Shown here: positions 31,340 to 59,514 of the stretch, one piece after another
Numbering within the stretch: the stretch's first letter is position 1
How the letters are laid out: every line of letters begins with the position of its first letter
From: Methanoculleus receptaculi
GTDB taxonomy: Archaea > Halobacteriota > Methanomicrobia > Methanomicrobiales > Methanoculleaceae
Length of the DNA stretch: 64,000 nt
Assembly (NCBI RefSeq): GCF_033472595.1
Contig: NZ_CP137642.1
Span: 868,001-932,000, forward strand
Direction: 5' to 3'
The notes under the pieces: model-generated
What the model was told of the DNA's origin: nothing
The model's database searches: none
The model's input: only the letters and a program-made list of their open reading frames with translations
Program-made: the position numbers and the translations under genes

Positions 31340-31600
31340 TCTGTCGTGGCCGTCCGGAGGTCGTCAACCCCTCCCCCCCCGTGGCGATTCTCCATAGATA
31401 CGGTGCCAGGGAGAGATCCTTTTTCTGCCGTCAATCTGAGACGCCCTGCCGAGATCCCGTTCCTGTCCCCCTGGCACGGTATCCGGCTCAACCACCACGC
31501 ACTGCCCGCCCCGCTGGATGATTCTCCATCAGTTCAGTGCAAGATCTCTCATCGGTTCCCGGCCCCGGCCGCCTCCCCCTCACAATCGCCGTAGCATGCC
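31340..31600. repeat. Intergenic palindromic element, copy 2
   Basis: Arm GATACGGTGCCAGGG (31397-31411) pairs with CCCTGGCACGGTATC (31469-31483). It is preceded by the family lead GCGATTCTCCATA and followed by CACGCACTGCCCGCCCC. Relative to the 57.9-kb copies the arm reads GTGCCA instead of GTGTCC, with the matching change in the partner arm. It lies between divergent argH and the ABC transporter operon. Confidence 0.7.
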
Positions 31601-52402: not shown

Positions 52403-52597
52403 CTCACGCTCATCTGGGGGTCATCCGGGTATAAGTTTTTTGGACTGCGGGCCGGCGAGAGCCCGGGAGGGCATGAAGCCAGTCTTCTTCATGGCTGTGC
52501 CCTGGTCTGATGAACCTCCGGCGTGGACGGAAGTACGGACGGATATCCGCATCGTCGCAGACCGCCTCCCCCATCAGGATGGAGGCGGCCGGGCGGT

Positions 52598-52787
52598 GGG
52601 GGTGTTTCCACGAATACCGTTCAACCAGAGACACAGGAGACAGGGGAGTGGGGATGTGGGGGTGTTCCATCGAAAACCGTTCAACGGGAGACACAGGAGA
52701 CAGGCAGCGGGGGATGTGGGGGTGTTCCAGCGAAAACCGTTCAACGGTAGACGCATGAGACAGGGGCGGGGGATGTTTCATCCCCCT
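52598..52787. repeat. 60-bp tandem repeat, three units
   Basis: Unit core GGTGTTCCA-(T/G)-CGAAAACCGTTCAACGG followed by GAGACACAGGAGACAGG and GGGGATGTGG. Copies begin at 52610, 52670 and 52730 (at the GG of GGTGTT), exactly 60 bp apart. A fourth copy is at 52983-53040. The last unit runs directly into the palindromic element's lead. Confidence 0.85.
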
Positions 52788-53090
52788 CCCCGTCAGCCCC
52801 ACCCCCGCGGGGTGATATCCCATCGATGCACTGCCGGGGAAGAGCATCTCCACGGCTTGATGTGAACACCCTGTCGAAATCCTGTCTCTGTCCCCTGGCA
52901 CGGCCATCGGGGGCTATCGCCACGCACTGCCCGCCCCCTCGGAAGGGGGCGGGAGGAGGCCGCGTGAGCGGCCGGGCGGCGGGGGTGTTCCAGCGAAAAC
53001 CGTTCAACGGGAGACGCATGAGACAAGGGGCGGGGGATGTTCCTTTCCCCTCCCCGTCAGCCCCACCCCCCCGCGGGGGTGCATTTTTCT
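52770..53090. repeat. Intergenic palindromic element, copy 3
   Basis: Lead GCGGGGGATG...CATCCCCCTCCCCGTCAGCCCC, then CCCATCGATGCACTGCCGGGG (52819-52840), and the partner CCCCTGGCACGGCCATCG (52892-52910), followed by CCCGCCCCCTCGG...GGGGGCGGG. A second CCCCTCCCCGTCAGCCCC lead occurs at about 53046-53065. Confidence 0.65.
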
Positions 53091-56544: not shown

Positions 56545-57768
56545 GCAGTCATTACGGTTGATGAGTTACGGGGAAGACGGGTCTACATCGAGACCTATGG
56601 CTGCACCTACAACCAGGCCGATAGCCGGAGGCTGGAACGGATACTGGAGGGGCAGGGTTGCACCATAACAGGGCGTCCGGAGGAGGCGGACGCCGTTGTC
56701 ATCAACACCTGCACGGTGATAGGCAGAACCGAGCGAAAGATGCTCCGGCGGCTTGAGGAGTTCGCCGACCGCGATCTCTATGTGACCGGGTGTATGCCCC
56801 TCGTTCAGATGGATGAGATCCGGTCGGTCTGCAACCCCCGTGTCATCCACCCGGACGAGATCCAGGAGCGGTCCGGGAGCATCGGCACCCGAGGCCCGGG
56901 GGCGACCGGCGTCGTCCAGGTGGCTTCCGGCTGCGCAGGCCGGTGCAGTTACTGCATAACCCGGCTTGCACGCGGGCGGCTGCGGAGCGCGCCGGCGGAG
57001 GCAGTCCTTGATGCCGTCAGGGGTCTTCTCGCCTCAGGAGCATACGAGATCCAGGTTACCGGGCAGGACGTTGCCGCCTGGGGCCTCGATCGCGGCGAAT
57101 CGTTCCCGGACCTCCTGCGCGGGATATCGGGTATCCCGGGGCGGTTTGCCGTCCGGGTGGGGATGATGCACCCCGCATCGGTCACCGGTATCCTGGACGA
57201 TCTGGTCGAGGCGTTCCACAGCGAGAAGGTCTTCCGGTTCCTCCACCTCCCTGTTCAGTCAGGCTCGGACACCGTCCTTGAGCGGATGCAGCGGGGCTAC
57301 ACCGCGGCGGACGTCGTCCGGATCGTGGATGCGTTCCGGGAGGAGTTCCCGGATATGATGATCTCTTCTGACTTCATAACCGGGTTTCCGGGCGAGACGG
57401 ATGAGGAGTTCCAGGAGACGCTCGAACTCCTCCGCCGGTGTGAGTTTGTGAAGGTTAATGTCACACGCTACTCCCGGCGGCCCGGCACCCCCGCTGCCGC
57501 CTTGAAAGACCTCCCGGAGAGGCTGAGGAAGGAGCGGTCACGGGCGCTGCTTGCTGAGGCGAACCGGATCTACGACCGCTACAACGAGCGCTGGATGGGA
57601 CGGGTGACGCCGGTGGTCGCGACAGAGAAGAAAGTGCCGGGCTCGACCGTCTGCCGTAACCCCTGTTACCTCAACGTCGTCATCAGAGACGACCTGCCAC
57701 CGGGTTTCTCCGGGAGAGCGCTCATAACCGGAAACCACCGCCACTACGTCATCGGGGAACTGGTTTGA
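56545..57768 (+). CDS. tRNA t6A37 methylthiotransferase (MiaB/MtaB family, archaeal)
   Basis: About 405 aa. N-terminal MTTase domain VYIETYGCTYNQADSRRL (near 56590) and VINTCTV, radical-SAM CAGRCSYCITRLARG with the CxxxCxxC cluster, GQDVAAWGLDRG, LHLPVQSGSDTVLERM, DFITGFPGETDEEF, and a C-terminal TRAM domain. Adds a methylthio group to t6A at tRNA position 37. No ATG/GTG/TTG lies in frame between the stop at 56542 and the GTG at 56716, which is inside the domain. Either ATT (56551) starts translation, or a one-base insertion separates the TTG at 56541 from the frame. Confidence 0.85.
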   Translation, partial: AVITVDELRGRRVYIETYGCTYNQADSRRLERILEGQGCTITGRPEEADAVVINTCTVIGRTERKMLRRLEEFADRDLYVTGCMPLVQMDEIRSVCNPRVIHPDEIQERSGSIGTRGPGATGVVQVASGCAGRCSYCITRLARGRLRSAPAEAVLDAVRGLLASGAYEIQVTGQDVAAWGLDRGESFPDLLRGISGIPGRFAVRVGMMHPASVTGILDDLVEAFHSEKVFRFLHLPVQSGSDTVLERMQRGYTAADVVRIVDAFREEFPDMMISSDFITGFPGETDEEFQETLELLRRCEFVKVNVTRYSRRPGTPAAALKDLPERLRKERSRALLAEANRIYDRYNERWMGRVTPVVATEKKVPGSTVCRNPCYLNVVIRDDLPPGFSGRALITGNHRHYVIGELV

Positions 57769-57905
57769 GGCCGCCAGACCGGTGACGTCAGGCGGTGCGA
57801 GCCGTGCTGCCGGAGCCGTGCTGCCGGGTTTGGTGGAACCTCTGCCGCGACGGTTTTACAGGGCGGAGGTGATCTATGAAAGATCTTTCTGGTGACACGC
57901 GAGCG

Positions 57906-58900
57906 ACAGGGGCGGGGGACGTCTCCATCCCCCCTCCCCGTCAGCCCCTCCCCCACGGGGGCGATTCTCCATAGATACGGTGTCCGGGAGGAGACCACTA
58001 CTTCGCGGTCTCACCTGACACTCCCTGAGATCCGGTCTCCTCCCCCGGACACGGTATCCGGTGCTATCGCCCCACACTGCTCGCCCCCTGTGGAAGGGGC
58101 GGGAGGAGGCCGCGGAGCGGCCGGGCGGTGGGGGTGTCTCTACCTCCCACGGAAGAAGAGTGTCTGGTTGATATGCAGGAGACAGGGGCGGGGGATGTTC
58201 CATCCCCCTCCCCGTCAGCCCCTCCCCCACGGGGCGATTCCCCATAGATACGGTGTCCGGGGAGGAGACCACTACTTCGCGGTCTCACCTGACACTCCCT
58301 GAGATCCGGTCTCCGTCCCCTGGCACGGCCATCGGGGCTATCGCCACGCACTGCCCGCCCCCTCGGAAGGGGGCGGGAGGAGGCCGCGGAGCGGCCGGGC
58401 GGTGGGGGTGTCTCTACCTCCCACGGAAGAAGAGTGTCTGGTTGATATGCAGGAGACAGGGGCGGGGGATGTTCCATCCCCCTCCCCGTCAGCCCCTCCC
58501 CCACGGGGCGATTCCCCATAGATACGGTGTCCGGGGAGGAGACCACTACTTCGTGGTCTCACCTGACACTCCTTGAGATCCGGTCTCCTCCCCCGGACAC
58601 GGCCATCGGGCCAATCGCCAAACACTTGCCCGCCCCCTGTGGAGGGGGCGGGAGGAGGCCGCGGAGCGGCCGGGCGGTGGGGGTGTCTCTACCTCCCACG
58701 GAAGAAGAGTGTCTGGTTGATATGCAGGAGACAGGGGCGTGGGATGTTCCATCCCCCTCCCCGTCAGCCCCTCCCCCACGGGGCGATTCCCCATAGATAC
58801 GGTGTCCGGGGAGAGCATCACCTCAGCCGGTTTCAGGCGCGAAACTCCTCGCAGATCCGGTCTCCTCCCCCGGACACGGCCATCGGGCCAATCGGCCCTC
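57906..58900. repeat. Tandem array of a roughly 275-bp palindromic unit
   Basis: Anchors ACAGGGGCG at 57906, 58182, 58456 and 58731 give periods of 276, 274 and 275 bp: three full units and a partial fourth. Each unit has GGGGGATG...CATCCCCC, the lead GCGATTC(T/C)CCATA, and arms ATACGGTGTCCGGG...GAGACC and GGTCTCCTCCCCCGGACACGG about 40 bp apart. GCCGCGGAGCGGCCGGGCGGTGGGGGTGT separates units. Unit 2 has the arm variant CCCCTGGCACGGCC of the 31-kb copy, so units look like mosaics. Confidence 0.9.
57974..58058. repeat. Best-paired stem of the palindromic family (unit 1)
   Basis: Arm 57974-57996 (GATACGGTGTCC, then GGGAGGAGACC) pairs with 58034-58058 (GGTCTCCTCC, then CCCGGACACGGTATC), with one mismatch and two bulged bases, a stem of about 22 bp. 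The loop holds a further hairpin around ACTTCGCGG. Confidence 0.75.
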
Positions 58901-59073
58901 CCCGCCCTTCGAGCGTCTCCCACAGAATGGTGTTCACAGCAAACCCGGTTTGAAGCACCCCCGCGCACACTGCCTGCAAAACGTGGTGAGCCTATATCCT
59001 GGAATATTTGATCCGGCGGTCCCGATTTAGCCCCACGGAAACTTTTTCTCATACCTTGAATAGACACTCTCTC

Positions 59074-59514
59074 ATGCAGGAGTTCACCGGCCAGGAACTC
59101 TCCTCAAAGAAGGCAGATTACCTGAAGTACATCTACATGCGGGGCGATCTCGTGAAGACAACCGAGATCGCCGCCCGGTTTGACGTTGCCCCATCGACCG
59201 TCACAAAGGCCCTGAGGGAGATCGCGAACGCGGGTTACATCGAGCACACGCCCTACCACGGCGTGAGACTCACCCCTCCCGGCGTCGAGTATGCCCGGTT
59301 TCTGGTCCGCCGCCACCGGATCGTTGCGCTGGTGCTGAGCCACTACAGGCTTACGCCCGAGGAGGCCTGCAGCGAGGCGGAGAAGATCGAGCAGTCTTTC
59401 TCAAAGGACCTGGTCGACAGGATCTGCAGGTCGCTCGGGCACCCGATGATGAGCGTCTGCGGCGAGATCGAGCACGATCGCGGTTGCTGCTCCTCCGGCG
59501 GACGGTTGGTGTGA
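59074..59514 (+). CDS. DtxR/MntR-family metal-dependent regulator
   Basis: 146 aa from the ATG at 59074. Winged helix KKADYLKYIYMRGDLVKTTEIAARFDVAPSTVTKALREIANAGYIEH, then the dimerisation/metal domain LVRRHRIVALVLSHYRL...EEACSEAEKIEQSFSKDLVDRI. C-terminal CGEIEHDRGCC may add metal ligands. It lies 25 bp before the metal ABC transporter operon, which it probably represses when Zn/Mn/Fe is high. Confidence 0.9.
   Translation: MQEFTGQELSSKKADYLKYIYMRGDLVKTTEIAARFDVAPSTVTKALREIANAGYIEHTPYHGVRLTPPGVEYARFLVRRHRIVALVLSHYRLTPEEACSEAEKIEQSFSKDLVDRICRSLGHPMMSVCGEIEHDRGCCSSGGRLV

Follow-up and report, generated by a model that had tools for sequence, protein, structure and literature searches.

A tandem array of a non-coding palindromic element found across Methanoculleus genomes

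We characterized a tandem repeat array in the chromosome of Methanoculleus receptaculi. The window, i.e., the whole stretch of DNA analysed, spans 64,000 nt and corresponds to positions 868001-932000 of the single 1.98 Mb contig that makes up this genome (G000). The array consists of head-to-tail units at 57905-58894 (TRF period 274, 3.6 copies, score 1622) and lies in an intergenic gap of about 1.3 kb (57769-59073, 1308 bp). The gap is flanked by genes for a tRNA methylthiotransferase and a metal-dependent regulator, the latter followed by a zinc/manganese-type ABC transporter operon. The N-terminal domain of the methylthiotransferase extends in frame past the listed GTG start into the preceding sequence (window 56560-56716), and no ATG, GTG or TTG was seen at its expected beginning. 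The features of the locus and the related copies in the window are as follows.

56716..57768, plus strand: upstream gene, MiaB-like tRNA t6A37 methylthiotransferase (TIGR01578 above cut-off; C-terminal 350 aa in the ORF list)
57905..58894, plus strand: whole tandem array (3.6 units, period 274-275; TRF and nhmmer)
57905..58178, plus strand: unit 1, starting within the 3' domain; a degenerate 5' remnant may extend back to 57859
58179..58452, plus strand: unit 2, with left arm CCTGGCACGG, the commoner arm type in the genus
58453..58727, plus strand: unit 3 (pairwise unit comparison)
58728..58894, plus strand: unit 4, partial, with 3' domain, right arm, diverged spacer and left arm, without 5' domain
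58059..58135, plus strand: 5' domain, copy 1 (hairpin H1, hairpin H2, G-rich third strand; covariance model R1, 54.3 bits)
58333..58409, plus strand: 5' domain, copy 2 (R1, 67.2 bits)
58607..58684, plus strand: 5' domain, copy 3 (R1, 51.8 bits)
57931..57953, minus strand: 3' domain core, copy 1 (exact match of the 23-mer), corresponding to the published CTGAC-loop repetitive G-quadruplex motif (PMC8044849)
58205..58227, minus strand: CTGAC-loop motif, copy 2 (exact match)
58479..58501, minus strand: CTGAC-loop motif, copy 3 (exact match)
58754..58776, minus strand: CTGAC-loop motif, copy 4 (exact match)
57974..58058, no strand: junction of successive elements, with right arm GATACGGTGTCCGGG, spacer and left arm CCCGGACACGGTATC; inverted repeat, arms 55 nt apart
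59026..59049, plus strand: promoter-like box TTTAGCCCCACGGAAACTTTTTCT
59074..59514, plus strand: downstream gene, MntR/DtxR-like metal-dependent regulator (MntR models match below curated cut-offs)
52551..53079, plus strand: second, degenerate copy cluster of the element family (nhmmer)
31362..31519, plus strand: third, degenerate copy of the element (3' half and spacer; sequence comparison)

A preliminary description had placed a head-to-tail array at 57906-58900, with three and a half units in a 1.3-kb gap between two genes. Its coordinates were right to within a few bases, and the unit number and setting were borne out. The three full units (274, 274 and 275 bp) were 92-96% alike, with pairwise identities of 249/271 (units 1 and 2), 252/271 (units 1 and 3) and 261/274 (units 2 and 3). 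The exact 23-mer GGGGAGGGGCTGACGGGGAGGGG occurred four times in the array versus never in 100 window shuffles. The right arms were alike across units (GATACGGTGTCCGG), and the left arm of unit 2 differed from those of unit 1 (CCGGACACGG) and unit 3 (which also has GGACACGG); the earlier statement that unit 2 carries the GGCAC variant on one side only is therefore correct. That the array is an assembly artefact, created by false tandem duplication, deserves almost no credence: any two units are separated by at least 13 differences (4-8%), the chromosome was assembled as a single contig, an insert also occupies this site in the sister species (G002), and there are more arrays both in G000 and in other species.

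The anatomy of the repeat was assessed by comparison across the genus, which resolved the unit into an element of about 230 bp and a spacer. Two variants of a terminal inverted repeat enclose a 5' domain, a linker variable in both length and sequence, and a 3' domain. From the left end (CATGCACGGMTTTCCAYCGGMTATCGCC), the 5' domain contains CACTGC, hairpin H1 (C-rich/G-rich), GGAGGAG, hairpin H2 and a G-rich strand, GGGCGG(GG)TGGGG. The 3' domain consists of the hairpin GAGACAGGGGAGGGGG/CCCCCTCCCCGTC and then AGCCCC(T/A)CCCCC, and the right end is GGCGATAYCCCCACGGTCCASTG. The element has defined ends, as sequences cease to be conserved some 24-28 nt beyond the ATCGCC/GGCGAT cores. Across the genus, each terminal-repeat variant can flank the interior on either side, and the interior was also found inverted between its two terminal repeats. 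Left arms with GGCAC or GGACAC and right arms with GTGCC or GTGTCC were combined in several pairings in G000 and its sister. Successive copies in arrays are separated by the spacer, which together with the arms forms a second palindrome of the unit in G000. Codon scoring called no coding ORF across the elements in most loci.

Next, we examined whether the predicted pairing has been maintained. A fold was predicted from an alignment of 20 sequences of the 5' domain (A1), and its ATCGCC stem and H1 both showed compensatory changes. H2 pairing was tested separately from this model: among 21 distinct sequences, the mean outer stem was 4.33 bp compared to 2.56 bp with shuffled arms, and none of 2000 shuffles reached the observed mean. 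H2 thus varies by compensatory change. The H1 type and the G-rich third strand co-varied with no exception among clear cases (CCCCCGCCCC with GGGCGGGGT/GGGTGGGGT; CCCGCCCCC with GGGCGGTGG/GGGTGGTGG), and in either type, therefore, the 5' arm of H1 can find a pairing partner in the third strand; this coupling may date from an early division into two subfamilies instead of repeated compensation. One element as single-stranded DNA folded far better than its shuffles (z = -3.75). Pairing in the element is selected, or at least maintained.

Such folding could also mean that the element gives rise to a structured RNA without coding function, such as an sRNA or a ribozyme-like repeat RNA. Strong folding was seen for the minus strand of one unit (z = -3.85), and two weak RAGATH-10 matches on the minus strand (23.8 and 20.8 bits) were the only Rfam hits, but these fall far under the gathering score of 41.2 and no match was found at the loci of eight relatives, and so identity with this Rfam RNA was dropped. 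As the element also lies in either orientation to genes, has an interior that inverts and shows no conserved promoter upstream of its left end, we regard an RNA source as very unlikely.

We measured the distribution of the element in its own genome, the genus and beyond. Blastn found 55 matches in G000. Covariance model R1, which represents the 5' domain, had matches in all 25 Methanoculleus genomes (2-87 each, 54 in G000); in an order-wide sample, all 11 genus members matched and four of 50 other genomes did so marginally. An N-relaxed version of the CTGAC-loop motif had 39 matches in G000 and was present in 20 of the 25 genus genomes. The copies constitute a single non-coding family whose members are scattered over the intergenic regions of nearly all Methanoculleus species. 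Collections of phages, plasmids and viral contigs, from which near records may be left out, contained no match to the element, and an origin from such sources was rejected.

The site of the array was compared across genus genomes, with the regulator gene as the anchor. In 22 other Methanoculleus genomes, the same two genes are only 46-83 bp apart, and this short spacer is nearly all conserved box TTTAGCCCCACCGAAACTTTTTC. The promoter-like box lies in these short spacers, and it is intact downstream of the insert both in G000 and in G002, where the gap measures 740 bp and holds one full and one decayed element (about 1.5 decayed units, compared to 3.6 in G000). We infer a promoter role for this box. 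Given the short gap in 22 genomes and the insert in two, the insertion most likely predates the split between G000 and G002, and the array most likely grew, or shrank and decayed, after it.

Tandem growth was not confined to this locus. G000 and G002 together contained 46 near-complete units and ten clusters of two to four units each; there were nine multi-unit arrays besides that of the window, which is the most even of the clusters. In these two genomes, unit identity was 0.87 within arrays compared to 0.76 between arrays, and 14 of 27 units had their nearest relative within their own array, with 1.2 expected from shuffled labels. Arrays in other species have shorter periods (L120, L125, L129). 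At an orthologous site, the array of G003 exceeds that of G015 by one unit. Between species, unit number thus changes in steps of a whole unit, and the variation that the preliminary description had expected among strains is supported at this level. This comparison of close relatives yielded no clean minimal insertion, as the whole intergenic block has diverged save for the one-unit difference. The preliminary description had suggested recombination or conversion between element types. The within-array identity, the mixed arm pairings and the inverted interior make this plausible but do not prove it; point mutation of a few letters may account for unit 2 itself. Separately, a synteny break of about 19 kb was observed beside an element (G003:C1:1159552-1160278 versus G015:C54:33365-52826), so the elements may be sites of rearrangement.

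Traces of a mobilizer were sought in several ways. There was no excess of direct repeats of 4-9 bp, as would mark a target-site duplication, at the ends of 28 single elements; decay, or a family that makes no duplication, are possible reasons. No autonomous transposon with the ends of the element was found among the terminal-repeat matches inspected, and in this subset all 30 loci with a terminal repeat contained the same interior or deletion forms of it. Y1_Tnp was absent from 19 of the 25 genus genomes, including four with 33-72 copies of the element (G003, G011, G015 and G020), and no element was detected within about 1.5 kb of the Y1-transposase genes at six loci examined. A REP-type (Y1) transposase was therefore rejected as the mobilizer, as its distribution does not fit and its genes were unlinked to elements at the loci examined. 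G021 had 19 Y1-transposase matches, many of them fragments, yet only two elements.

The placement of the elements relative to genes was assessed from codon-score gene calls, with several divergent pairs checked with Pfam. Element clusters in G000 lay between divergent (16), tandem (15) and convergent genes (5), and those in G002 were divergent in four cases, tandem in four and convergent in one. The corresponding elements were convergent in 12, tandem in six and divergent in one case in G003; convergent in eight and tandem in four in G020 and G054; and convergent in 17, tandem in 16 and divergent in three among the remaining genus loci. The convergent versus divergent difference between the G000/G002 clade and the rest gave a Fisher p-value of 2.5e-8, to which selection and gap length may contribute, as the loci were picked by match strength and, in G000, it is the divergent genes that have long gaps between them. 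Placement thus shifted from convergent (or tandem) genes elsewhere in the genus to divergent or tandem genes in this clade. The loci compared were L009-L039 and L193-L200 for the clade and L118-L136 and L201-L212 for the rest of the genus.

These contexts bear on whether the element is selected by the host for regulation or architecture, acting as a terminator or insulator, or as a promoter-proximal G-quadruplex or triplex switch, and kept for its action on neighbouring genes. The compensatory change in H2, the co-variation of H1 type with the third strand and the convergent preference outside the G000/G002 clade all speak for such a role. Oligonucleotides of related repeats fold in vitro as quadruplex, triplex or hairpin, and a role in initiation or termination has been proposed for them in the main text of PMC8044849. 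However, copy number varies from 2 to 87 between species, sites are not conserved, the H1 coupling could stem from the two subfamilies, and the convergent preference is lost in G000 and G002 (divergent 20, convergent 6), so a constant function at 3' ends is untenable. On balance, we consider host-selected regulation unlikely. Still less likely is a more elaborate version, a genus-wide, structurally selected switch in which the G-rich third strand and the arm of the hairpin itself are competitors, with triplex, quadruplex or hairpin as the outcome, and which was redeployed in the G000/G002 lineage from gene 3' ends to upstream or divergent regions, with arrays tuning or insulating promoters.

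Chromosomal position was measured relative to orc1, used as a proxy for the origin, and the depletion figures are without control for gene density. In G000, two of 46 element loci lay in a 687 kb arc (49-736 kb, G000:C1:49000-736000) around orc1-1 at 356 kb. The mean distance from orc1-1 exceeded 0.5 of the half-chromosome in G000 (0.645), G003 (0.678) and G020 (0.653), and it was 0.536 from orc1 in G054, not clearly above 0.5. Elements are thus depleted near orc1 in three of the four complete genomes. A replichore-dependent strand bias in G000, with 20 of 35 pointing away from orc1, was suggestive but not significant (permutation p-value = 0.145).

Taken together, the dispersed family, the orthologous empty sites and the tandem growth here and elsewhere are observed, and we consider it probable that the array arose when a non-coding palindromic element of genus-wide occurrence was amplified locally, head to tail, and that this element behaves as a non-autonomous MITE/BIME-like mobile repeat. 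An ancestor of G000 and G002 would have gained the element between the methylthiotransferase stop codon and the regulator promoter. Copy count would then have risen through unit-length duplication, whether by unequal recombination, slippage at fold-back structures or rolling-circle copying, and the arms would have been shuffled by recombination. We infer mobility from the dispersed copies and the empty sites, and as no target-site duplication, parent transposon or Y1 linkage was found, the element is said to work like a MITE or BIME and is not called one. The effect on the host is likely structural, with hairpin, triplex or G-quadruplex DNA or RNA parting two transcription units that are nearly contiguous elsewhere.

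Bacterial REP/BIME are intergenic palindromes with many copies, arrays of a basic module, compensatory changes and proposed effects on transcription and chromosome structure. REP units are 20-40 bp long, with a GTAG or CGTC tag at one end and an associated Y1 tyrosine transposase. The element resembles them in its many intergenic palindromic copies, its module repeated in arrays and its compensatory changes, but it is archaeal, about 230 bp long, bounded by terminal repeats and arranged head-to-tail, with no transposase association found. Its ends are of the CATGCACGG...TATCGCC and GGCGATA...CCGTG type, and CGTC occurs only inside the 3' domain. With MITEs it shares short length, non-coding content, terminal inverted repeats and many dispersed copies, but neither a target-site duplication nor a parent insertion sequence was found, and its interior structure is conserved. 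If mobile, the element would represent an archaeal REP/BIME-like system without the transposase that explains the bacterial ones.

The 3' domain is part of the published repetitive potential G-quadruplex sequences (rPQS) of Methanomicrobiaceae, of which the CTGAC-loop type occurs in Methanoculleus, as the main text of PMC8044849 describes. The rule given there calls for four G-runs, with outer loops of one nucleotide and a central loop of a known kind. The complement of the 3' domain (GGGGAGGGGCTGACGGGGAGGGG) fits with its four G-runs and CTGAC central loop; the element is likewise intergenic, and a C-rich tract (GGGGGATGGAACATCCCCCGCCCC on the minus strand) follows the last G-run. That main text describes a motif of about 25 nt plus a C-tract, with about half of the surveyed repeats between convergent genes and no regularity relative to the replication origin; terminal repeats, 5' domain, tandem arrays and empty sites do not appear in it. 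The archaeal satellite survey PMC6749651 likewise lists tandem repeats of Methanoculleus, among them 45- and 51-nt families in M. marisnigri, but the 275-nt unit falls outside its range of 10-200 nt. The rest of the element, its arrays and its empty sites were absent from the main texts of the literature searched, and supplements may mention them. The full anatomy, the empty sites, the placement shift and the orc1 depletion in three of four complete genomes are new here. What had been an isolated quadruplex motif, known only in outline, is thereby extended to a complete element whose ends, domains, arrays and empty sites are described. This opens its mobility and its effect on the host to testing in a major methanogen group, and the lineage-specific change in gene context offers a natural comparison for effects on transcription.

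A second small repeat (…GGAGTTTGAGCACCG…CGGTGCGA…) was observed nested within the hairpin loops of the element in several genomes (L119, L133, L134, L135, L187).
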